Shown: one piece after another, positions 1,690 through 63,607 of the stretch
Position numbering within the stretch: the first letter of the stretch is position 1
How the letters are laid out: each line of letters begins with the position of its first letter
DNA from: Levilactobacillus lanxiensis
GTDB taxonomy: Bacteria; Bacillota; Bacilli; Lactobacillales; Lactobacillaceae
NCBI RefSeq assembly: GCF_016861655.1
Contig: NZ_BOLN01000010.1
Location: 62,001 to 126,000, forward strand
Direction of reading: 5' to 3'
Length of the DNA stretch: 64,000 nucleotides
Position numbers and translations under genes: made by a program
The notes under the pieces: generated by a model
Told to the model about the DNA's origin: nothing
Seen by the model: the letters and a program-made list of their open reading frames with translations, nothing else
Databases searched by the model: none

Positions 1690-1920
1690 AACCTGGGGTT
1701 AAGCTGTGTTGGGTCCGCCTCCGGGCGGGTGCAAATGGGACCGGAACGCGGTGGGCGCCCGTCCGGAGCCACAGAGCGGTCTCCGAACTTACTTTGAGCC
1801 TCACAAACCCGAGTCTCAAAGATAGCAGTTCCCTAAGCGGCAAAGACCGTCGCTAAGGGAACTCCCACGGCTAAGCCCATTTGCACCCGCCCTGCGGCTA
1901 ACACTGGCTTAGCCCCGGTT
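1690..1920 (+). repeat. Structured dispersed repeat, type A, copy 1
   Basis: Element between htrA and walJ. The outer closing stem pairs GGGTGCAAATGGG with CCCATTTGCACCC. Inside are three arms in order: CGGAG..CTCCG, TTTGAG..CTCAAA, and a long arm AGTTCCCTAAGCG with CGCTAAGGGAACT that has a single A-A mismatch. The ends AACC-GGGGTTAAG and CTTAGCCCC-GGTT are also inverted. There is no ORF. Strand is assigned by the mismatch being A-A. Confidence 0.85.
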
Positions 1921-3002: not shown

Positions 3003-3223
3003 GGGTTATACCGGATGTATTGCGCCTTACCGGGCGGGTGAAAATTGAGCCGTGACGCGGTGGGCGCCCGTCCGGAGCCACAAAGCGGTCTCCGAACTTA
3101 CTTTGAGCCTCCAAGCCCGAGTCTCAAAGATAGCAGTTATCTAAGCGGCAAAGCCCGTCGCTAAGATAACTCCCACGGCTGAGCTCATTTTCACCCACCC
3201 TGCGGCTTAGACTGGATTAACCC
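3003..3223 (+). repeat. Structured dispersed repeat, type A, copy 2
   Basis: Same plan as copy 1, but with compensatory changes. The closing stem is GGTGAAAATTGAGC with GCTCATTTTCACC instead of the GCAAATGGG version, and the mismatch arm is AGTTATCTAAGCG with CGCTAAGATAACT instead of the CCC/GGG version. The A-A mismatch is kept. The ends read GGGTTA and TAACCC, a short terminal inverted repeat. Confidence 0.85.
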
Positions 3224-3348
3224 ACAAACAGTGTTCAGTTTTTCCCCCCACTCATGACTACTCAGACGATTCAGCTAATGTCCTCATGCAATTTCCAAAC
3301 CCAAATCAGTCTAACACTGGTTACCGTTGTGAAAATTTCCACCATCAA

Positions 3349-3540
3349 CAGCGACCAGAGGCGGGGCTAGGTGCCCAGCCGTGTCGATGGCTTTAGCTGA
3401 ACGATTTTCTCAGCTTAGGCCATGGGACGACTTTTGAGACTGGCGGGCTTCCAGGCTTAAAAGCGAGGCGGAAGACCGCTTCCCAGGCTGGAGCCGTTCC
3501 CCACCAGCAGGGCACCTGGCCCCGCCGCCGGGAGCGACCA
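3349..3540 (-). repeat. Structured dispersed repeat, type B, copy 1
   Basis: Lies between walJ and yycI, next to type A copy 2. The closing stem is AGGTGCCC with GGGCACCT. The internal arm GGCTTTAGCTGA / TCAGCTTAGGCC has its mismatch as T-T on the plus strand, hence A-A on the minus strand. The margins CAGCGACCAGAGGCGGGGC and GCCGCCGGGAGCGACC recur in the other B copies. Confidence 0.75.
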
Positions 3541-3561
3541 TCACGAAAATTTCGTCCCAGC

Positions 3562-10813: not shown

Positions 10814-10939
10814 TCTACATATAGGGAGAAACGCAGCAAAAATTAGCCGATTGCTCACGCGCTCAATCGCATAACGACGTGCCTCAGCGAGGAACATCTG
10901 CGAACAACAAACAGAGTCTTGGACCGCAAGCTTAACGTT

Positions 10940-11083
10940 AGTGACCAGAGGCGGGCCAAAGTGCCCTGCTGTGTCGATGGTCTTAGTAGATCTTAGACCA
11001 TGGGACAACCTTTGAGACCGCTTCTCAGGCTGGAACCGACCCCACAGCAGGGCGCTTTGAGCCCGCCGCCGGGAACGGCCTAC
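10940..11083 (-). repeat. Structured dispersed repeat, type B, copy 2 (shortened)
   Basis: Margins GTGACCAGAGGCGGGCC and GCCGCCGGGAACGGCC as in the other B copies. Closing stem AAAGTGCCCTGCTG pairs with CAGCAGGGCGCTTT (one G-T pair). One internal arm is deleted and the mismatch arm is reduced to GGTCTTAG..TCTTAGACC. The rest of the 10814-11248 gap shows no gene. Confidence 0.7.
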
Positions 11084-12549: not shown

Positions 12550-12860
12550 CCCCGTACCTCCTCCGACAATGACTACCCACCACCCCCAACTTCACGCCAA
12601 TAGCGTCTCCCCAAAGTTAAGCGGTGGAATAGTTCTTGCCACTCATCATACGACAGTTTAATCAGTGAACGCCACCCTTTCGGCAAAACAAAAAGCAGCC
12701 GGTCCGCTAAAGTGCGGAGCGACTGCTTTTCTAGAGGTCGAAAATTTGAGGTTAGTCGGTGAGCCCTGTCTCACGGGGCAAGCACTCACTGATTAGTTTG
12801 TTTAAAACGGTGTTGTCTTTCGCCTCCGGGGCGAGGAAAACGAATCGGAACGCGGTGGAC
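12550..12860. other. Non-coding gap with a hairpin and a repeat fragment
   Basis: Holds a terminator-like hairpin at 12691-12730 (AAAAGCAG..CTGCTTTT around GGTCCGC/GCGGAGC) and, at about 12818-12860, what looks like the truncated left end of a plus-oriented type A repeat (CGCCTCCGGGGCG, GGAACGCGGTGG). No ORF seen. Confidence 0.5.
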
Positions 12861-12899
12861 ACTATACAATAGTTGCTAGATCAACATCCGCAGAATTAC

Positions 12900-13113
12900 G
12901 GGCTAAACCCGTGTCAGCCGCAGGGCTGGTGAAAATGGGCTCAGCCGTGGGAGTTGCCTTAGCGGGTTTCCCGCTTAGGCAACTGCTATCTTTGAGACGT
13001 GATCTTCGTCTCAAAGTAAGTCTGGAGACCGCCCTTTGGCTCCAGGCGGGCGCCCACAGCGTCACGGCCCATTTTCACCAGCCCGGAGGCGCTGCTAGAA
13101 ATCAGTTTAGCCC
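12900..13113 (-). repeat. Structured dispersed repeat, type A, copy 3
   Basis: Closing stem CTGGTGAAAATGGGC with GCCCATTTTCACCAG (15 bp, perfect). Arms: GTTGCCTTAGCGGG/CCCGCTTAGGCAAC with T-T on plus (A-A on minus), TTTGAGACG/CGTCTCAAA and CTGGAG/CTCCAG. The ends are GGGCTAAA and TTTAGCCC. It abuts the stop codon of the oppA-like gene. Confidence 0.85.
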
Positions 13114-13122
13114 ATAAACCCG

Positions 13123-16794: not shown

Positions 16795-17093
16795 GGGTTA
16801 GACTGGTTGTTGCCCGCGTCTCCGGGATGGTGAAAATACGGATGGTCACGTTCGTTCCCGCCGGTGGGCTCAAGATGGCCTGCTATGGGGACCGGTTCCG
16901 GCCTGAGAAGCGGTCCGCCACCTCGCCTTGAAACCTCGCTGAAGTTCGCGAGTTTCCAAGGTCGTCCCGTGCTCTAAACTGAGAAAATCACTCAGTTAAG
17001 ACCACCGACACAGCTGGCCATCTTGGCCCACCGCTGGTCACTGACATTAACCACCCATTTTCACCATCCCTGCGGCTAACACGCGTTTAGCCC
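16795..17093 (+). repeat. Structured dispersed repeat, composite (B core within A ends)
   Basis: The outside is type A: ends GGGTTAGACTGG and GTTTAGCCC, closing stem GGATGGTGAAAAT with ATTTTCACCATCC, and the A-type flank CTGCGGCTAACAC. The inside is a type B core (about 16846-17045) with stem AGATGGCC/GGCCATCT, arm CCTTGAAAC/GTTTCCAAGG and mismatch arm CTAAACTGAG/CTCAGTTAAG (A-A). It lies between divergently transcribed genes. Confidence 0.85.
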
Positions 17094-17280
17094 ACACGCG
17101 CCATCCTCATTATTAGGCTGCCTTTCCAGTGTATTTAACCTATTGATTTAACTCATTTATCCCTTCCCGACAGGTAATTACTATCCCCATAAACAGCACC
17201 CTCTCAAGGACAATCCCCTCGCCAATTAATTGTTTTTCCTCCATACTTCTCGTACACTGAAACCAAAGGAGTGATCCGAC

Positions 17281-18029: not shown

Positions 18030-18279
18030 TTCCCCGAGCGGTGGTTGCCCCGAACCAGTATCAGCCGCAGGGCTGGTGAAAATGGGCTCAGCCGTGGGAG
18101 TTGCCTTAGCGGGTTCCCCGCTTAGGCAACTGCTATCTTTGAGACTCGCTTCTCAGAGGCTCAAAGTAAGTCTGGAGACCGCCTTTCGGCTCCAGACGTG
18201 CGCCCACAGCGTCACGGCCCATTTTCACCAGCCCGGAGGCGCAGAACCCAGAGCACAAAAAAAACCACCGCTCGGGGAA
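18030..18279. repeat. 17-bp perfect inverted repeat enclosing a type A element
   Basis: TTCCCCGAGCGGTGGTT at 18030-18046 and its exact reverse complement at 18263-18279, with type A copy 4 between them. It looks like a hairpin whose loop was occupied by the repeat. Confidence 0.85.
18058..18245 (-). repeat. Structured dispersed repeat, type A, copy 4
   Basis: Closing stem GGTGAAAATGGGC/GCCCATTTTCACC. Arms: AGTTGCCTTAGCGGG/CCCGCTTAGGCAACT (T-T on plus, so A-A on minus), TTTGAG/CTCAAA and CTGGAG/CTCCAG. Very close to copy 3. Confidence 0.85.
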
Positions 18280-18301
18280 AGCGATGGTCATCGGAGTAGG
18301 G

Positions 18302-27987: not shown

Positions 27988-28015
27988 TTGACATTCGCTA
28001 GATTCCTGCTAAACT
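27988..28015 (+). promoter_or_regulatory. Promoter of T-box module 1
   Basis: -35 TTGACA (27988-27993), 16-bp spacer, -10 TAAACT (28010-28015). The same elements and spacing recur at module 2. Confidence 0.75.
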
Positions 28016-28021
28016 AGCAAT

Positions 28022-28341
28022 CATTAACAATTGATTAGAAAATTAAAAAGTGATGATGAAGACTAGTAACGTCCTTGGTCCTTGTTAGCGAGCCCGGTTA
28101 AGTGCAAGCGGGTCAAGGCTGACGACGCGAACTCCCTTCTGAACTGTCAGCTGAAATTTAGTAAGCCCGACCGGTGGCAACCGTTATCCCTGCAGTGAAT
28201 CGCGACCTGGCTGGCCCATCGGACCTAGCTGATGGTTACCGGCCTCTAGGAGTGTCGCCGTTCACGTTCGAGTAAAAATTAAGGTGGTACCGTGCGACAG
28301 CGCCCTTACGGAGAAGTTCTTTCCGTGGGGGCGCTTTTTGT
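28022..28341 (+). promoter_or_regulatory. T-box riboswitch, module 1
   Basis: Stem I start GTGATGATGAAGACTAGTAA, distal GCGAGCCCGG, specifier region GCGAACTCCCTTCTGAAC, antiterminator box AAGGTGGTACCGTGCG at 28281-28296, and a terminator GCGCCCTTACGG..CCGTGGGGGCGC followed by TTTTTG. The specifier is CTC (Leu; 28132-28134) if aligned from the 3' side, or TCC (Ser) by the GAA-N spacing; Leu is preferred by comparison with module 2. Confidence 0.93.
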
Positions 28342-28378
28342 GTCCACCACTATTTCTAAGCAATTGAAACTAGGAGGG

Positions 28379-28394
28379 TGTTCCACATGAAACA
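28379..28394. promoter_or_regulatory. parS-like site over the oppA-like start codon
   Basis: TGTTCCACATGAAACA, one mismatch from consensus TGTTCCACGTGAAACA. The start ATG of the downstream gene is inside it (28387-28389) and the ribosome site AGGAGGG touches its left edge. Confidence 0.5.
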
Positions 28395-29994
28395 TTTTGC
28401 AGCACTAATTCCCGTCACCATGCTGGTGGCCATCACCTTGAGTGCCTGTGGCAGTAGTGCCGCGGGTCAAACCAATAAGAATAAAACCTTGAACGTCACC
28501 TTGGCCGACGAACCAGCCACTGTCGACCCTAACAAGGATACCGACACCAACAGTGCCAGCGTCATTTTTCAAACGATGGAAGGTCTCTACACGTACAGCC
28601 GCAACAACAAAATCATCCCCGGGGTGGCCACCAAGGTCGTTACGCCCACGAATCACGGCAAGACCTATACGTTTACCCTGAAGAAGACGGCCAAATGGGC
28701 CAATGGTCAGCCCGTCACCGCACAAGACTTTGTGACTTCGCTTCGGCGCATGGCGGACCCCAAGACTAAGGCCCAATACGCGAGCCTCCTGTCGTCGTTT
28801 AAAAATTACAGCGCCATACAACACAGTCAGGCCGCCCCATCCAAGCTGGGAATCACTGCGCTCAGTAAAACCAAGCTGCGCATTCAGTTGACCAAGGCCG
28901 TGCCCTACTTCAATGACCTGCTGGCCAGCAAGTATTATCCGTTGAACACCGCCGCCGTGACCAAATACGGCAGTAAGTACGGGACCAGCGCCACTACGGC
29001 CATGGCCAATGGCCCGTACAAGCTGGTCGGCTGGACTGGGAGCAATTCGACCTGGCACTACGTGAAGAATTCCCACTACTGGAACGCCAAGAACGTTAAA
29101 ATCAAGCGCGTTAAGGTCGCCGTGACCAAAGACGAAACGACGGCCGCTAACCTATTCAAGGCGGGCAAGGTCCAAGAAACCACGGTCAGTGGTGAGTATG
29201 TCCGGGCCAATAGCAATGAAAAACAGCTCCACACTCACCTGCAGGGCCGCATGAACCTGTTGTATTTCAACCACAAACGGACCGTTACCGACTCCGAAAA
29301 TTTGCGGCAGGCCGTTTCCTACATCGTCGACCGCAATCAATTGACCAGTCAGGTGCTCCAGGACGGGTCCAAGCCCGCGCTGAGTGCCATTCCGCGTGGC
29401 GACCAAACCAATCCCCAGACGGGCGGCGATATGGCCACCGAAACCGGCAACCTGCTCCCCCACGACATTGCCAAGGCTAAGGGTTATTGGCAGAAATACT
29501 TGAAGGAGACCGGCAAGTCCACTGCCACCATTAGCATTTTGACCGACGACAGTGACGACGATAAGAAAATCGGCACCTACCTCCAATCCGTGATGGAGAA
29601 ACACTTCAAGGGCCTGACCGTGAAAACGGCCGCGCTGCCCCACGCCCAACACGTGGCCCGCGACTTCTCTGGCGACTTTGACATCAACCTGATTGGCTGG
29701 TCGACCAACTGGCTGGACGCGTCCGACTACCTGGATTTGGCGGCCAAGGACAACTCCGTCAACTTCACCCACTGGAATGATTCGACCTACAACCAGCTTC
29801 TCACGACCGCGGAAAATAAAACGGGCCAGGCCCGCTACAATGGCTTGGTCACCGCCAATAAATACCTGATGGGCGTCAAGGGCTACGTCCCCCTGTACCA
29901 ACCTTCAGAGGCCAAACTGATTAGCAACAAGGTTGGCGGCTTGACGTATTCATTGATCAACGACGCCCAGTATCAGTATGCTTACTGGAAGTAG
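28387..29994 (+). CDS. Oligopeptide-binding lipoprotein (OppA family), module 1
   Basis: Extracellular peptide-binding lipoprotein, 535 residues, with lipobox LSACGS (Cys about 21) and a family-5 substrate-binding domain (TFTLKKTAKWANGQPVT, GPYKLVGWTG, HYVKNSHYWNAKN). It is closely similar in frame and sequence to the module 2 copy and more distantly to the gene at 13123. The start is the ATG at 28387 after AGGAGGG; a GTG at 28378 overlaps the ribosome site and is unlikely. No permease genes are adjacent. The T-box leader makes it responsive to aminoacyl-tRNA shortage, fitting peptide scavenging for a missing amino acid. Confidence 0.93.
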   Translation: MKHFAALIPVTMLVAITLSACGSSAAGQTNKNKTLNVTLADEPATVDPNKDTDTNSASVIFQTMEGLYTYSRNNKIIPGVATKVVTPTNHGKTYTFTLKKTAKWANGQPVTAQDFVTSLRRMADPKTKAQYASLLSSFKNYSAIQHSQAAPSKLGITALSKTKLRIQLTKAVPYFNDLLASKYYPLNTAAVTKYGSKYGTSATTAMANGPYKLVGWTGSNSTWHYVKNSHYWNAKNVKIKRVKVAVTKDETTAANLFKAGKVQETTVSGEYVRANSNEKQLHTHLQGRMNLLYFNHKRTVTDSENLRQAVSYIVDRNQLTSQVLQDGSKPALSAIPRGDQTNPQTGGDMATETGNLLPHDIAKAKGYWQKYLKETGKSTATISILTDDSDDDKKIGTYLQSVMEKHFKGLTVKTAALPHAQHVARDFSGDFDINLIGWSTNWLDASDYLDLAAKDNSVNFTHWNDSTYNQLLTTAENKTGQARYNGLVTANKYLMGVKGYVPLYQPSEAKLISNKVGGLTYSLINDAQYQYAYWK

Positions 29995-30032
29995 AGTGCG
30001 GAGAGAGCCGCTTAGACTCTGAGCATTAACGT

Positions 30033-30075
30033 CGGTTTAGTGATGCCCCCGGTCTTTGGGGGGATTACTGAACCG
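30033..30075. other. Long hairpin after the module 1 lipoprotein gene
   Basis: CGGTTTAGTGATGCCCCC and GGGGGGATTACTGAACCG pair over about 17 positions with two G-U pairs and a 7-base loop. No T-run follows, so a terminator role is doubtful. Confidence 0.6.
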
Positions 30076-30080
30076 GGGTT

Positions 30081-30291
30081 AAGCGCAGGAGTCTGGCTCT
30101 CGGAGCACGTTTCCAAGGCTGCTGATTTTCGGATAGATACGCGCAGAGCCAGTCAAATGATTTAAGATGCTGTAACCTTAAACAACCAGGAGTGCTTGGA
30201 CTTTCTAAGCGCAGGGGCCTGCCTTGTGTAGCACGTTTCCAAGGCTGCAAGCTTCCGGATAGACACGCGCAGAACCCGTTCAACGACCTAA
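30081..30291. repeat. Two degenerate direct repeats, 126-bp period
   Basis: AAGCGCAGG..GCACGTTTCCAAGGCTG..CGGATAGA-ACGCGCAGA at about 30081-30165 recurs at about 30207-30291. The rest of the gap up to the amidohydrolase gene has no ORF. The corresponding gap of module 2 holds a type A repeat instead. Confidence 0.8.
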
Positions 30292-30421
30292 GGCAAGATT
30301 AGGTCAATCCCCACCCAAAAGGACTGACTAAACCGTAATCAATCCCAAAGAAACCGCGTCACCAATCACCATCAATCCGTTATCAAAATTTAAAAAATAC
30401 CAAATTCAGGAGGACTCACCC

Positions 30422-31609
30422 ATGACGAAAAAAACATTCTACAACTTCACCCTATTTGACGGCGCTGGCGATCAAAATACGCCGGACGCTTGGTTCACCG
30501 TGGACACCGACACCGGCAAGATCACTGCCAGCGGCACGGGTCACCCCGATACCACCGACGAACAAGTCGACCTCCACGGCCAATATGTCATGCCCGGCTT
30601 TATCAACGTGCATACCCATATCACCAGCAATCCCGACTCCTTTAGCGGTAGCTTCGGCGCGTCCGAATCCGAGTCCGCGGTCTTTGGTTACGAGAATCTG
30701 CAGAAGCTCCTCAAGTCAGGTGTCACCTACATTCGCCAGTGTGGCGCGACTTACGACGTCGATATCAAACTCAAGCGGCTCCAACGCGACGGACGCCTGC
30801 CGCGCACTCCACACATCATGGCATCCGGTCGCGCCTTTTCAATGACCGGGGGCCACGGGGATGGCCGCAACTCGGCCTACCTGGTCGACTCCCCCGACGA
30901 AATGCGTAAGGGCGTGCGGCAAGCCTTTAAGGCCGGCGCCGAATGCATCAAGGTCATGGCGACCGGCGGCGTGATGACGCCCAACGACTTTATGGAAGAC
31001 CCGCAACTCTCCGTACCCGAAATGCACGTAGCCGTTGAGGAAGCCCATCACAAGCGGCGCATCGTCGCCGCCCACGCGGAAGGCAATCCCGGAATTCAAA
31101 ACGCCCTCGATGCCGGCGTCGACTCCATCGAACACGGCTTCTACGTTAACGAGGCCGAGGCGCATCAGATGATTGCCCAGGGGACCTACCTCACCCCGAC
31201 ACTGATTGCCGAATGGGTCATCCCCGAAAAAGGCCGCGGCGTGCTTCCCGATTGGGAGGTCAAAAAGGCTGCCGACGCCATTGATGACACCTACCACAAC
31301 CTGAAGCGTGCATTTGAAATCGGCGTGAAATTCACCTGTGGCACCGATGCCGGTACCCCCTTCAACGGCTTTGACCGGACCCCCGACGAGTTCGGCCTGC
31401 TCACCAAGGTGGGGATGACCCCCGCACAGGCCTATCACTGTTCTAGCATCAACTCGGCCACGCTTTTAGGCGTTGCCGATGACTACGGTACCCTTGAAGT
31501 TGGCAAGCACGCCGATTTCCAAGTGCTCCGGGCTGACCCATTAGCCGATACGGCCGCCGTAAAGCAAACGGACAAGGGCGTTTACGTGGGCGGTATTCAA
31601 CAGTTTTAA
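30422..31609 (+). CDS. Metal-dependent amidohydrolase (imidazolonepropionase/prolidase-like), module 1
   Basis: 395-residue amidohydrolase-superfamily enzyme with metal-binding HTHIT (about 64-68; HxH), the KVMATGG segment carrying the likely metal-bridging Lys (about 178), His ligands in AAHAEGN and IEHGFY, and Asp in CGTDAGTPF. Related proteins include Xaa-Pro dipeptidase-type and imidazolonepropionase-like hydrolases; pairing with a peptide-binding protein suggests a dipeptidase or amide hydrolase, but this is inference. AGGAGGACTC precedes the ATG. It is probably transcribed from the T-box promoter. Confidence 0.85.
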   Translation: MTKKTFYNFTLFDGAGDQNTPDAWFTVDTDTGKITASGTGHPDTTDEQVDLHGQYVMPGFINVHTHITSNPDSFSGSFGASESESAVFGYENLQKLLKSGVTYIRQCGATYDVDIKLKRLQRDGRLPRTPHIMASGRAFSMTGGHGDGRNSAYLVDSPDEMRKGVRQAFKAGAECIKVMATGGVMTPNDFMEDPQLSVPEMHVAVEEAHHKRRIVAAHAEGNPGIQNALDAGVDSIEHGFYVNEAEAHQMIAQGTYLTPTLIAEWVIPEKGRGVLPDWEVKKAADAIDDTYHNLKRAFEIGVKFTCGTDAGTPFNGFDRTPDEFGLLTKVGMTPAQAYHCSSINSATLLGVADDYGTLEVGKHADFQVLRADPLADTAAVKQTDKGVYVGGIQQF

Positions 31610-31642
31610 CCCCCTTCGGAAAAATTAATTTCAATTTTCGCG

Positions 31643-31670
31643 TTGACAAATAATTTTTCGGTGCTAAACT
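31643..31670 (+). promoter_or_regulatory. Promoter of T-box module 2
   Basis: -35 TTGACA (31643-31648), 16-bp spacer, -10 TAAACT (31665-31670), starting 34 bp after the amidohydrolase stop. Confidence 0.8.
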
Positions 31671-31676
31671 AGCAAT

Positions 31677-32021
31677 TATTAACAATTGATTAGAAAATGA
31701 AAATGTGATGATGAAGTCCAGTAGCAGTGACCATCCTTGTCAGCGAGCCCGGTAAAGTGAGAGCGGGTCAAGCCAGTCGCCGTGAACATCCCTTCGGAGC
31801 AGTTAGCTGAAATCCAAGTAAGCGTCAACCGGGAGCATCCGTTATCAATGCAGTGAATCGCGGGAGTAGTCGCGGCTTCAATCGATCCTAGCCCTTGGGC
31901 CTCGACTCCTAGGAAGCCCGCCGTTCATAATCAAGACGATGCGTTTTCGCGTCGCAAAAATAAGGTGGTACCGTGCGCAAGCACCCTTACAGAGAAGTAT
32001 TTTCTGTAGGGGTGCTTTTTG
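31677..32021 (+). promoter_or_regulatory. T-box riboswitch, module 2
   Basis: Stem I start GTGATGATGAAGTCCAGTAG, distal GCGAGCCCGG, specifier ATC (Ile; 31788-31790) in GTGAACATCCCTTCGGAGC, box AAGGTGGTACCGTGCG at 31962-31977, and terminator AGCACCCTTACAG..CTGTAGGGGTGCT with TTTTTG. The Ile specifier fits both ways of counting. Confidence 0.94.
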
Positions 32022-32067
32022 TTTGTCCACCGCCGCTAATGTTCTAATCAATTGAATTCTAGGAGGG

Positions 32068-32083
32068 TGTTTCACATGAAACA
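32068..32083. promoter_or_regulatory. parS-like site over the second oppA-like start codon
   Basis: TGTTTCACATGAAACA, one mismatch from parS; the ATG at 32076 is inside it. Confidence 0.5.
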
Positions 32084-33683
32084 TTTTGTTTGGACTGCAC
32101 CACTAGCTTTACTCACTGTCTTATCCCTAGCCGGTTGTGGCAGCGCGGCTGGTCACACGACCAATAAGAACCGCACGCTCAACGTGACGCTGGCCAGTGA
32201 GCCCGCCACCGCCGACCCCAACAAGGACACCGACACCAACAGTGCCAGCGTCATTTACCAGACGATGGAGGGCCTCTACACCTATAACAAGGCCAATAAA
32301 ATCGTGGCTGGTGTCGCGACGAAGGTCGTCACCCCCACTAATCATGGCAAGACCTACACCTTCACGCTGAAGAAGAACGCCAAATGGGCCAACGGGCAGC
32401 GCGTCACCGCCCAGGACTTCGTGACGTCCCTTCAACGGATGGCCGACCCCAAGACCAAGGCCCAGTACGCTAGTGTCCTCTCGGCATTTAAGAACTACGC
32501 TGCCGTCCAAAAGGGCACCCTACCAGCTTCCAAGTTAGGCGTTAAGGCGCTGAGCACGACCAAGCTCCAATTTCAACTGAGTAAGGCCGTCCCATACTTC
32601 GATGACCTGGTCGCCAGCAAGTATTACCCGCTGAACACGGCTGCCGTCAAGAAATATGGCCAGAAATACGGGACCAGCGCCGCAAAATCCGTGGGTAACG
32701 GGCCCTACAAGCTGGTTGGTTGGACCGGTAGTAACGCCACCTGGCACTACGTCAAGAACCCCCACTACTGGAACGCCAAAGAGGTTCAGATCAAGCGCGT
32801 TAAGGTGGCCGTCACCAAGGACGTGAACACCGCCGCGAACCTATTTAAGAGCGACAAGGTCCAGGAGACCACGGTCACTGGTGAATACGTGCGCGCTAAC
32901 AGTAATGATGCGAGCCTACATACCCATTTGACTGGCCGCTTGAACTACCTGTACGTCAATAGCCGCAAGACCGCGACGAACTCCGAGAACCTGCGCCAAG
33001 CCATCTCCGCCGTCATCGACCGCAAGCAATTAACTAATAAGGTGCTCCAGGATGGTTCCAAGCCAGCCTTGAGCGCCGTGCCGCAAGGCGACCAGGCGAA
33101 CCCGAAGACCGGGCAGGACATGGCCAAGGAAGTCGGCAACCTGCTCCCCCACAACGTCGTCCAGGCCAAGACTTACTGGGCGAAATACCTGAAGGAGACC
33201 GGTAAGACCAAGGTCACGCTGAACCTTTTGACGGATGATACAGATGACGATAAGAAGGTCGGCACCTACCTCCAATCCGAAATGGAGAAGAATCTAAAGG
33301 GCCTGACCGTCACCACGACCGCCATCCCCCACGCCCAACACGTGGCTCGAGACTTTGCCGGAACCTTTGAGCTCAACCTCACCGGCTGGTCGACCAACTG
33401 GCTAGACGCCTCCGACTACCTCAACTTGGCAGCCAAGGGCAATACCGTCAACTTCACCAACTGGAACGACAGCACTTACAACCAGCTGCTCGCGACCGCC
33501 GATGGTCAAACCGGACTGGCCCGCTACAAGTCGCTGATGAAGGCCGACAAATACCTAATGAGCGTCAAGGGCTACCTGCCCCTCTACCAGCCATCCGAGG
33601 CCAAGCTGATCAGCAGTAAGGTCGGCGGACTGCACTACTCGCTGTTAAACGAGGCGCAGTACCAATACGCTTACTGGAAATAG
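32076..33683 (+). CDS. Oligopeptide-binding lipoprotein (OppA family), module 2
   Basis: 535 residues, lipobox LSLAGCGS (Cys about 22), same domain and length as the module 1 protein and clearly a paralogue by duplication (shared EPATADPNKDTDTNSASVI and YQYAYWK ending). The ATG at 32076 follows AGGAGGG; an upstream in-frame TTG at 32052 precedes the ribosome site and is rejected. The T-box with an Ile specifier controls it. No transporter genes are adjacent. Confidence 0.93.
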   Translation: MKHFVWTAPLALLTVLSLAGCGSAAGHTTNKNRTLNVTLASEPATADPNKDTDTNSASVIYQTMEGLYTYNKANKIVAGVATKVVTPTNHGKTYTFTLKKNAKWANGQRVTAQDFVTSLQRMADPKTKAQYASVLSAFKNYAAVQKGTLPASKLGVKALSTTKLQFQLSKAVPYFDDLVASKYYPLNTAAVKKYGQKYGTSAAKSVGNGPYKLVGWTGSNATWHYVKNPHYWNAKEVQIKRVKVAVTKDVNTAANLFKSDKVQETTVTGEYVRANSNDASLHTHLTGRLNYLYVNSRKTATNSENLRQAISAVIDRKQLTNKVLQDGSKPALSAVPQGDQANPKTGQDMAKEVGNLLPHNVVQAKTYWAKYLKETGKTKVTLNLLTDDTDDDKKVGTYLQSEMEKNLKGLTVTTTAIPHAQHVARDFAGTFELNLTGWSTNWLDASDYLNLAAKGNTVNFTNWNDSTYNQLLATADGQTGLARYKSLMKADKYLMSVKGYLPLYQPSEAKLISSKVGGLHYSLLNEAQYQYAYWK

Positions 33684-33889
33684 GCTTAACCCCCTTGCCT
33701 CCGGGTCGGTGAAAATGAGACTGGTCCGCTGTGGGCGAACGCCCGGAGCCAAAGTTCGGTCTCCGCGCTTACTTTGAGCCGAAAGAGCACGTCTCAAAGC
33801 TATCAGTTCCCTAGGTGGCGAACCCACCAAGGGAACTCCCACGGCTAAGCTCATTTTCACCACCCCTGCGGCTGATACTGGCTTAACCC
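33684..33889 (+). repeat. Structured dispersed repeat, type A, copy 5
   Basis: Begins directly at the stop codon of the module 2 lipoprotein gene. Closing stem GGTGAAAATGAG/CTCATTTTCACC; arm AGTTCCCTAGGTGG/CCACCAAGGGAACT with the A-A mismatch kept but the distal pairs changed (GGTGG/CCACC against AGCG/CGCT); TTTGAG/CTCAAA arm. The 10-mer GGCTTAACCC occurs in the same orientation at both margins (33683-33692 and 33880-33889). Confidence 0.85.
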
Positions 33890-33960
33890 GTAATCTTTTA
33901 ACTTATTAAACAGCTATATAACCCATAATAAATGCACTTTAAATCTTAGGAGGAATTTCT

Positions 33961-35148
33961 ATGACCAAAACTACTTTCCATAACTTCACCCTGTTCGATG
34001 GCGCTGGTGACCACAACGTGCCTGATGCCTGGTTCACCGTTGATAATGACACCCATAAATTAGTTGACCGCGGCCAAGGCACACCGGCCGCCGCTGATGA
34101 TCAGGTCGACCTGGGCGGCCAATACGTGATGCCCGGTTTCTTCAACGTCCACACCCACGTGACCCTGAGTCCCGACTCTTTCAGTGGCCAATTTGGCCAA
34201 TCCGAGTCCGAGGTCGCCGTCTTTGCCTACGAGAATTTACAAACGCTGCTAAAATCCGGGGTCACCTACGTCCGCCAGTGCGGGACGACCTACGACGCCG
34301 ACGTTAAGCTCAAACGCCTGCAACAGCAGGGGCTCCTGCCTCATACACCGCACATGCTGACGTCTGGGCGCGCCTTTTCCATGACCGGGGGCCACGGGGA
34401 TGCGCCCCACGCCGCCTACCTGGTCGACTCTCCCGATGAAATGCGCAAGGCCGTCCGCCAAGCCTTTAAGGCCGGTGCGGAAACGGTGAAGGTCATGGCG
34501 ACCGGCGGTGTCATGACGCCCAATGACTTCATGGAAGACCCGCAACTCTCCGTGGCAGAAATGCACGCGGCCGTTGAAGAGGCCCATCACAAGCGTCGGT
34601 TAGTTGCCGCCCACGCGGAAGGCAACCCGGGGATCCAAAACGCCCTGGACGCCGGCGTCGATTCCATCGAGCACGGTTTCTACGTAACAGCGGATGAGGC
34701 GCGGCAAATGGTTAAACAGGGCACCTACCTCACGCCCACTCTCATTGCCGAATGGACGATTCCCGCCTTCGGTAAGGGCGTGCTTCCGGACTGGGAAGTG
34801 AAGAAATGTGCCGACGCCTTGGACGATACCTACGTGAATTTGAAACGGGCCTTTGAGCTTGGTGTCAAATTCACCTGTGGGACCGACGCCGGCACCCCCT
34901 TCAATGGTTTTGACCTAACGCCAGACGAGTTTGGCCTGTTGACGCGTGTGGGCATGACCCCAGCGCAGGCCTACCAGTGCTCGAGTTTGAACTCGGCGGC
35001 ACTGCTGGGCGTCGACCAGGAATACGGCACACTAGAAGTGGGCAAGTTTGCTGATTTCCAGGTCTTGAAAGCTGATCCGCTGGCGGACACAGCCAACGTC
35101 AAACAAGCTGACAAACAAGTCTACTTAGGTGGCCATCGGGAATTTTAG
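33961..35148 (+). CDS. Metal-dependent amidohydrolase, module 2
   Basis: 395 residues, same length and motifs as the module 1 enzyme (HTHVT, KVMATGG, AHAEGNPGIQNALDAG, IEHGFY, CGTDAGTPF). The catalytic residues are all kept, so both copies look functional. AGGAGGAATT precedes the ATG. It is separated from its lipoprotein gene by the type A repeat but probably reads through, since the only terminator seen is after this gene. Confidence 0.86.
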   Translation: MTKTTFHNFTLFDGAGDHNVPDAWFTVDNDTHKLVDRGQGTPAAADDQVDLGGQYVMPGFFNVHTHVTLSPDSFSGQFGQSESEVAVFAYENLQTLLKSGVTYVRQCGTTYDADVKLKRLQQQGLLPHTPHMLTSGRAFSMTGGHGDAPHAAYLVDSPDEMRKAVRQAFKAGAETVKVMATGGVMTPNDFMEDPQLSVAEMHAAVEEAHHKRRLVAAHAEGNPGIQNALDAGVDSIEHGFYVTADEARQMVKQGTYLTPTLIAEWTIPAFGKGVLPDWEVKKCADALDDTYVNLKRAFELGVKFTCGTDAGTPFNGFDLTPDEFGLLTRVGMTPAQAYQCSSLNSAALLGVDQEYGTLEVGKFADFQVLKADPLADTANVKQADKQVYLGGHREF

Positions 35149-50591: not shown

Positions 50592-50621
50592 GTCGTTGTT
50601 AGTGAAACTGGGTAAAGGCCA

Positions 50622-50808
50622 TTCGTTCCCAACGGCGGATTCAACCTACCCGGCTATGGGGTCGGTTCCAGCCTGTGGAGCGGGCTTCCACCTCGACTTT
50701 GAGCCGAAGGACGTTCTCAAAGGTCGTCCCGTGGTCTAAGTAGAGAAATTTCGCTCTACTAAGACCACCGACACAGCAGGGGACTTTGATCCGCCTCTGG
50801 TCACTAAC
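50622..50808 (+). repeat. Structured dispersed repeat, type B, copy 3
   Basis: Mismatch arm CTAAGTAGAG/CTCTACTAAG (A-A), TTTGAG/CTCAAA arm, margins CGTTCCCAACGGCGG and CCGCCTCTGGTCACT. An outer pair GGCCATT/AATGGCC lies just outside. Between yidC and jag, which are normally adjacent. Confidence 0.8.
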
Positions 50809-50971
50809 AATGGCCCAGCTTCGCTAAGGTCGTGGCTGACACTGATAGGACTTGTCACAGCTTTCCTTTCGACGCCACGTCGTTACCTTAACAAAATCAC
50901 CTTCACCTCCTTTCAGTGGGGTGTGCGCGGCTCTGCAACGAACATCCGAGTAACGGGGACCTGACGCGTTA

Positions 50972-62954: not shown

Positions 62955-62989
62955 ACGGGGGTGAAAATGAGCTGGAATGCGATGACAGG

Positions 62990-63172
62990 CGTTCCCGGCG
63001 GCGGATTCAAAGTGCCTTGCTGTGGGGCCGGTTACAGCCTGAGGGGCGGGCTTTCACCTCGACTTTGAGCCGAAGGGCGGTCTCAAAGGTCGTCCCGTGC
63101 TCTAAGTAGAGAAAATCGCTCTACTAAGACCACCGACACAGCTGGTCACTTTGATCCGCCTCTGGTCACTGA
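62990..63172 (+). repeat. Structured dispersed repeat, type B, copy 4
   Basis: Long closing stem GGCGGATTCAAAGTGCC / GGTCACTTTGATCCGCC (two imperfect positions), TTTGAG/CTCAAA arm, mismatch arm CTAAGTAGAG/CTCTACTAAG (A-A). An A-like left flank GGGTGAAAATGAG is at 62959. Confidence 0.85.
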
Positions 63173-63297
63173 CACTGCGTAACCCAACTCAGTTTCGCTG
63201 GTTTTGTGGCTGATGTTGGTTTCGTCCATGTTGGCTTACTGTTGGCGTATTTGGCGGCGGTAGGGCCGCGGTTGGGAGTAACTGATAGGTAATTAAA

Positions 63298-63331: not shown

Positions 63332-63407
63332 TATCGACTAGAGTCATATAGTTATTTTAAAAAGTTAACGCCGACTCGAGCTAAATTACACCAGCTCAAT
63401 CAACTTC

Positions 63408-63592
63408 AGTGACCAGAGGTGGGCCAAGGTCCCCAGCTGTGTCGGTGGTCTTAGCTGAGGTTTCTCACGCAGCCTAGTCCACGGGGCAACCTTTGAGACC
63501 GTTTCTCAGGCTCAAAGTTGAGGTGGAAGCCCGATTCTCAGGCTGGAACCGACCCCACAGCAGGGGACCTTGAGTCCACCGCCGGGAACGAC
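63408..63592 (-). repeat. Structured dispersed repeat, type B, copy 5
   Basis: Margins AGTGACCAGAGGTGGGCC and CCACCGCCGGGAACG; closing stem AAGGTCCCC/GGGGACCTT; TTTGAG arm present. The mismatch arm is partly decayed. It ends 16 bp from the stop of the efflux gene. Confidence 0.8.
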
Positions 63593-63607
63593 TGGTTTAG
63601 CAAAAGC

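Follow-up and report, generated by a model that had tools for sequence, protein, structure and literature searches.

The window analysed here, a 64,000-nucleotide stretch of the Levilactobacillus lanxiensis genome, carries at eleven places a repeat that can be drawn as a cloverleaf and whose stems differ from copy to copy. An earlier note on this DNA had read such differences as selection on structure, acting either on RNA or on folded single-stranded DNA. The question raised by the locus is what this repeat is, in which nucleic acid its fold is kept, and how its copies came to lie where they do.

Copies in the window and their common fold

A copy of the family was present at all eleven places that had been named, and the stem pairs quoted for them were found in the sequence. 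The cloverleaf fits as well: the copies, five of type A and six of type B, form one family with a constant order of arms. Types A and B and a looser type C share a plan in which a basal stem leads through an asymmetric internal loop to an asymmetric junction with three arms, two of which (arms 1 and 2) carry an invariant unpaired T. The consensus of the A basal stem is GGCTGGTGAAAATGGG / CCCATTTTCACCAGCC. Among 59 cross-species rows, arm 1 was missing in 8 and arm 2 in 4, which indicates that the arms are modules; the unpaired T was found in 51 of the 51 rows having arm 1, which terminates in AGCC...CGGTCT, and in 55 of the 55 rows having arm 2. Arm 3 was the most variable. In B copies, which are also detected by R1, the model of type A, the arm order is as in A, the copies sit within the outer stem of A copies, and the basal stem contains conserved mismatches that are invariant or nearly so. 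Copies from other genera (eleven printed, two of them clipped by contig ends and left unfolded) kept the fold with quite different stem sequences. The GC content of the copies was mostly 0.5-0.65.

The A-type copy at 1695..1915 (+ strand), with outer ends GGGTTAAGC...GGCTTAGCCC, illustrates this plan and is also found in L. mulengensis, L. wangkuiensis, and L. cerevisiae. On the + strand, the left strand of its basal stem (1724..1739) pairs with the right strand (1876..1891). Arm 1 (1763..1786, +) has the tip GCC...CGGTC with the unpaired T, arm 2 (1792..1821, +) is formed by CTTTGAG...CTCAAAG and likewise has an unpaired T, and arm 3 (1827..1863, +), formed by AGTTCCCT...AGGGAACT, covaries and shows the highest variability of the arms.

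The other A-type copies are located at 3003..3223 (+), 12894..13117 (-), 18050..18246 (-), and 33695-33895 (+). The first of these forms an inward pair with the B-type copy at 3344..3545 (-). The second follows an oppA-like gene and is faced by a weak copy remnant of 13.2 bits (12816..12860, +); it has an internal deletion in L. mulengensis and is missing from L. cerevisiae. The third, also missing from L. cerevisiae, adjoins a terminator-like hairpin, part of which recurs inverted on the other side of the copy. At the site of the fourth, only a remnant was observed in L. mulengensis, and L. wangkuiensis reads GGGTTAACCC, as if both ends had been fused. The remaining B-type copies are located at 10931..11083 (-), which is shorter than its L. 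mulengensis orthologue, at 16795..17095 (+), at 50620..50816 (+), and at 62960..63178 (+), which forms an inward pair with that at 63397..63594 (-). The copy at 16795 has a B-type interior (16848-17052) within an outer stem common with A copies, and L. cerevisiae carries an A interior at this site. The L. cerevisiae stretch matching 50620 contains an inward A/A pair, and about 41 bases of the 63397 copy are left in L. mulengensis. Slightly different limits were also recorded for several copies: 1708-1918, 3018-3229, 12894-13098, and 33692..33889 for type A, and 3346-3543 and 62985-63178 for type B. Apart from the repeat, the region 28007-35148 of the window is a segmental duplication with approximately 75-85% identity that comprises oppA-like genes (28378, 32052), 395-aa genes (30422, 33961), and their leaders. 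The leaders of these duplicated genes contain the motif GGTGGTACCGTG, which we take to resemble a T-box leader motif; no Rfam match to a T-box was obtained for them at the gathering score.

Many copies end in GGGYTAAAC...GTTTARCCC together with the outer stem, i.e. in terminal inverted repeats. The GGGTTA..TAACCC ends described earlier do exist, but they were clean on both sides in only 18 of the own-genome copies examined. The inverted repeat ran into the unique flanks in 7.1% of 127 copies, as compared with 0.5% in mismatched flanks. In the window, such flank-extended inverted repeats were observed at 1680-1690 with 1920-1945 and at 18033-18047 with 18265-18280.

Abundance, distribution, and relative orientation

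Unbiased counting was carried out on twenty even 20-kb stretches plus the window with R1 and the B model R2, followed by merging by hand. In these 464 kb, we found 82 copies: 32 A, 30 B, and 20 others (mostly type C, with some fragments). The first look at this genome had given 236 candidates with the A query and 368 with the B query, 40 of each being scored. Extrapolation gives about 535 copies per genome and 3.0% of the sequence, and the density was unchanged without the window (71 copies in 400 kb). About 3% of the genome would accordingly be one unnamed repeat family, common to many relatives including fermentation species. The copies were unevenly distributed; six of the twenty even stretches had none (L069, L071, L072, L073, L077, and L078), and the counts climbed with GC content (Spearman 0.54, p 0.015). 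Two of these copy-free stretches are of low GC (0.41 and 0.45) and are perhaps acquired DNA. By our own gene calls, 63 of 64 copies lay outside genes.

The search of other Lactobacillaceae genomes that had been proposed showed that the family is widespread, although the per-genome counts are lower bounds, with at most 83 or 99 candidates scored per genome in the genus searches and 7 or 8 in those of the family and order, and although only a short calibration underlies the E-values of R1 and R2. R1 matched 33 of 35 Levilactobacillus genomes at E 0.001, the two without a match being G012 and G024. At E 1e-4, it matched 89 of the 330 Lactobacillaceae genomes sampled, with hits in 12 of 40 genera. 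In an order-level sample, 25 of 395 genomes matched, 24 of them in Lactobacillaceae; the other, in another family, had a single weak match of the A model at 42 bits (G638:C1:322778-322921). R2 matched 26 of the 27 named genomes, L. huananensis having none. Two genomes filed as L. brevis (L084 and L085) differed markedly: the type strain had three B matches, and CD0817 had at least 98 among the 99 candidates scored. The nearly copy-free type strain and its copy-rich relatives thus provide natural assay hosts. The available portion of a publication on CD0817 counts 214 interspersed repeats and leaves them undescribed (PMC6534642). We found no description of the repeat family in the literature searched, to which subscription papers did not belong. 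The family is real and apparently undescribed so far; its copy number, its spread over the Lactobacillaceae, and the orientation rule described below are new here.

No match was obtained by blastn in a plasmid collection with five copies as queries (one per copy type or genus, which diverged copies could escape) or in a phage collection with one copy as the query. A plasmid or phage origin was therefore set aside. Such an absence would be odd for an active mobile element.

Neighbouring copies obeyed a strict rule of relative orientation. Among neighbours less than 400 bp apart in the even sample, 16 pairs were inward, 6 were direct, and none was outward (22 pairs), a result unmatched in a million random draws. 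The same distance gave 30 inward, 13 direct, and 0 outward in all the own-genome DNA examined, 11:3:0 in other Levilactobacillus loci (some of them orthologous to own pairs), and 3:0:0 in other genera. When the three groups were pooled, neighbours at 400-1000 bp were 7 inward, 2 direct, and 0 outward, and those at 1000-3000 bp were 6 inward, 18 direct, and 10 outward. The rule, inward or direct and never outward, strongly constrains any mechanism. Partners often differ in type (AB, AC, BC), and the spacers of own-genome inward pairs (56-380 bp) share no homology beyond the outer stems. Hence, each pair was formed separately or the spacer evolves fast, and the doublet, with its mixed partner types, was apparently not copied as one piece.

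Lone copies were also polarised. With gene limits from our codon-based caller, which was used for all orientation and lone-copy counts, the 5' side was closer to a gene in 29 of 35 lone copies (medians 55 vs 257 bp), and it made no difference whether the nearby gene read into or away from the copy (19, 16). Copy remnants beyond 30 bp were found on the 3' side in 9 of 59 cases and on the 5' side in none of 59. Most simply, the unit would be the inward doublet, from which lone copies would derive by loss of one partner; the spacer data fall short of proof.

Covariation, wobble pairs, and turnover of copies

The claim that the arms covary was borne out far beyond chance in both shuffle and tree-aware tests. 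In the alignment of 59 cross-species matches (58 distinct rows), which was fitted to the structure and is biased in its favour, 97.3% of 2740 cells were paired, whereas shuffles gave 75.0%; changes on both sides affected 43 of 50 pairs and 593 cells, and none of 500 shuffles reached any of the five measures. The tree-aware test, which was our own with 40 null replicates and not R-scape itself, was applied to structure-free alignments of 46 A rows and 62 B rows, all but 1-2 of which come from own or sister genomes. These rows were obtained by thinning at 93% identity to 47 A and 64 B copies and by dropping short copies, one A and two B, including that at 10940 in the window. In A, 15 of 50 pairs reached E<0.05, as did 17 of 56 in B; when all column pairs were considered, significance was reached by 7 in A, 6 of them within the structure, and by 6 in B, all 6 within the structure. 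Stem pairs alternate A-T with G-C, and G-C is often exchanged for C-G; intermediates are few. Furthermore, two window copies folded as single strands in four folds gave z values of -5.1 to -10.4.

The intermediates allow RNA and DNA to be told apart. In a folded RNA, a G-U intermediate is tolerated and an A-C intermediate is not; in DNA, or if either strand serves, the two are equivalent. Among varying pairs, from which invariant pairs and pairs with a non-Watson-Crick commonest form are excluded, G-U:A-C was 42:54 on the element strand (28:40 in 30 A pairs and 14:14 in 28 B pairs). In 45 distinct tRNAs of the same genus, a single and possibly extreme control, the ratio was 52:4 (Fisher p 3.5e-10 against 42:54). 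On the transcribed strand of copies between co-directional genes, the ratio was 34:38 (62 rows; 2 of 108 rows at locus edges were set aside). The count over all B pairs, 66:20, runs against the DNA reading, 43 of the 66 being at columns 9/186. In the cross-genus fitted alignment, 44 G-U were found vs 35 A-C, with 22 of the G-U at two neighbouring junction pairs. Even these two ratios are well short of that of tRNA. Since varying pairs show no excess of G-U over A-C, it is not as RNA that the fold is kept, and it is apparently maintained as DNA; of the two possibilities raised by the earlier note, DNA is favoured. The comparison tells selection on RNA from selection on DNA in repeats for which action as RNA is usually taken for granted, and the hundreds of variants of one DNA fold form a natural library from which recognition rules can be read.

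We then turn to single copies. GdpP of the window is 100% identical to that of L. wangkuiensis and L. mulengensis over the best segment, with surrounding DNA at about 93%; judging from these sequences, the source would be a sister species of the two. Between the window and L. mulengensis, one species pair compared with hand-picked gene limits, differing sites made up 9.2% of the elements (187/2039), 7.3% of other intergenic DNA (1068/14589), and 5.6% of CDS (2588/45951). In 15 orthologue comparisons covering 1251 pairs, we counted 148 one-sided changes and, among two-sided changes, 27 in which both forms are Watson-Crick and 8 otherwise. About 3 compensated pairs are expected by chance, as estimated from the per-site rate. 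Compensated pairs thus exceed expectation, but uncompensated change predominates. Some of the compensated changes concern whole arms at once and look like exchange between copies. Because change in shared copies is no slower than in the remaining intergenic DNA, conservation of the fold is a matter of the family and not of the single copy. Hence, selection on structure stands insofar as structure is kept and compensatory change is real, but its action on each copy is not supported. The pattern is that of a replicating element whose offspring must fold and whose old copies decay.

The history of individual sites was also followed. The eleven window copies correspond in L. mulengensis to eight intact copies, one internally deleted copy, and two remnants, and no new copy was found in that species in the aligned stretch. 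At one site, a single copy in the window corresponds to two A copies in L. wangkuiensis; its left end resembles the first and its body the second, so that it may have arisen by recombinational collapse of the two. For one gene pair, both members could be located in 24 species loci, and in 13 of these they are separated by 134-162 bp. In the window, L. mulengensis, L. wangkuiensis, and L. cerevisiae, a single copy lies between them and the separation is 438-569 bp; at six other loci the distance is longer still for other reasons. The copy gained at this site is of type A in L. cerevisiae and of type B in the others, reflecting either an interior swap or a separate insertion. Such gains are older than the turnover observed within the clade, which consists mainly of deletion and recombination and not of new insertion.

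A different explanation is that mutation and gene conversion alone produce the pattern, with arm exchange and template switching at forks changing both strands of a stem and the fold itself unselected. This would predict that G-U equals A-C, and it agrees with orthologues that differ by entire arms, with A and B interiors in one outer stem and at one site according to species, with the inverted repeats that extend into unique flanks, and with the absence of per-copy constraint. However, neither the unpaired T in arms 1 and 2 nor the mismatches conserved in the basal stem of B should survive template switching, and these are invariant or nearly so. Recent one-sided changes are frequent (148 vs 27 compensated), hence repair is not fast, and the dispersal to hundreds of sites and the orientation rule are left unexplained. 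We consider this explanation unlikely.

Proposed mode of spread and relation to known systems

A non-autonomous mobile element had been suggested by the inverted ends, and the look of the family, with inverted ends and dispersed, intergenic copies, agrees with this. The reading we put forward, to which we would give about even credence, is a non-autonomous, non-coding repeat family, mostly dormant now in this genome, that spread by way of folded DNA with the inward doublet as its unit. Spread would require the element to be folded as DNA, either in a strand that is single during replication or transfer or in an extruded cruciform. An enzyme that works in trans or has been lost would read the unpaired T in each of arms 1 and 2 together with the asymmetric junction. 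Copies still able to fold would be copied and would then decay in place. Inward doublets, with 50-380 bp between their members, would be the inserted or functional unit, and doublets minus one member would account for many of the lone copies that carry additional DNA at their 3' side.

A further step, which is tentative and rather doubtful, is that the family may belong to a system for recombination or transposition in the Lactobacillaceae that uses a new enzyme and in which a three-armed DNA strand would be read by its shape and pairs of facing sites would bound the moving unit. If shape were read, the arms could swap and drift as long as they pair, and the junction and the two unpaired Ts would be fixed.

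Traces of insertion and candidates for the enzyme were also sought. In 18 copies whose ends were compared, target-site duplications of 4 bases or more were absent; the ends matched over 2 bases in 5 of the 18 (1.9 expected, p 0.019), making a 2-bp target duplication possible. The Y1 transposase (PF01797) was present in 23 of 35 genomes, unrelated to their copy-rich or copy-free status; it was rejected as the mobiliser, being missing in copy-rich genomes such as G002, G003, and G029 and present in G012 and G024, in which R1 has no match. The integron integrase (TIGR02249) exceeded the curated cut-off in 0 of 35 genomes and was rejected as well. Loss of the SbcCD hairpin nuclease does not explain tolerance of the repeat, as all 35 of 35 genomes have SbcD above the cut-off. 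No autonomous version or parent transposon was seen in the 464-kb sample when it was scanned with a loose end motif. Twenty of the 66 loose matches were away from copies, and the two places that were read resemble ordinary coding sequence, so that the stray motifs there do not look like the ends of a larger transposon. As for 3' transduction, the best flank matches listed among 147 copies were within pairs or clusters, plus one 5'-5' match, apparently of duplicated genes, and this possibility was also rejected.

The nearest known kinds are the streptococcal BOX repeats and the REP doublets. The BOX elements of S. pneumoniae and S. suis are composite, intergenic, clustered, and of high copy number, with outer modules forming the main fold and variable inner modules, and were judged to be dormant non-autonomous mobile elements (PMC3049150). 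The present repeat likewise has a host in Lactobacillales, outer parts that pair, and inner modules that vary (losses of arm 1 or 2, A and B interiors). It is set apart, by description, in that its stems covary across copies and genera, its three arms are ordered, and an orientation rule holds. REP and REPIN sequences form DNA hairpins in which an unpaired base is conserved; they occur as inverted doublets whose spacer varies and as decaying singles, and their RAYT is a Y1 HUH transposase. The lactobacillar repeat resembles REPINs in its inverted doublets with variable spacers. Unlike the 20-nt hairpins of REP/REPIN, its units are four-way folds of 160-200 nt, and unlike in the REPIN/RAYT system, the Y1 transposase does not track its copies.

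MITEs are short, non-coding, intergenic, and AT-rich, with inverted ends and strong folding (PMC10969869, PMC3049150). The lactobacillar repeat is also short, non-coding, inverted-ended, strongly folding, and intergenic; it differs in being GC-rich and multi-branched with covariation, and no clear target duplication or parent IS was found in the searches above. In the integron attC site, a substrate of recombination, what is conserved is the folded strand with its unpaired bases and not the sequence. In contrast to attC sites, the present copies lie in both orientations between ordinary genes, in a set of 35 genomes with no integrase over the cut-off. Extrahelical bases are also found in HUH hairpins, a mechanistic parallel. 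REP doublets, attC sites, and HUH extrahelical bases would serve as parallels for the mechanism and not as memberships; membership in REPIN/RAYT or attC fails because each misses a tested defining feature. CRISPR repeats, riboswitches, and other Rfam families are also structured, repeated, or conserved. The Rfam search that had been proposed gave no match for the family, only a tRNA being found at the gathering score in the window and nothing at E 0.1 in 13 copy-bearing loci. The repeat is a variant of the dispersed structured repeat, unusual in its DNA-level covariation and its strict relative orientation.

Alternatively, the copies might serve the host chromosome as sites for a structural or topological protein, comparable to the gyrase-binding BIMEs, and be kept for chromosome organisation. 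Copies were found on whole-genome contigs and not by blastn in the plasmid and phage collections, and they are dense, family-wide, and polarised towards genes. We nevertheless regard a host element as quite improbable, since the distribution is patchy (no R1 match in G012 and G024, no R2 match in L. huananensis, three B matches in the L. brevis type strain vs at least 98 in CD0817, and 6 of the 20 even stretches empty) and orthologous copies are unconstrained. A structured RNA spread in many copies, whether a small RNA of its own or an element of mRNAs (processing site, terminator, or stabiliser), is highly improbable: covariation is deep, RNA folding is strong (z -8.6), and both strands fold, hence orientation need not matter, but the wobble preference of tRNAs is absent on the element and mRNA strands, orientation and position relative to genes are not fixed (18 copies between co-directional genes have the same orientation as the genes and 17 the opposite, without bias), and Rfam gave no match in the window or the 13 sampled loci.

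A minor observation concerns annotation. ARAGORN called a tRNA-Gly within a B copy (L033:1627-1718), which is likely a false call, and false tRNA calls of this kind could enter the annotations of these genomes.
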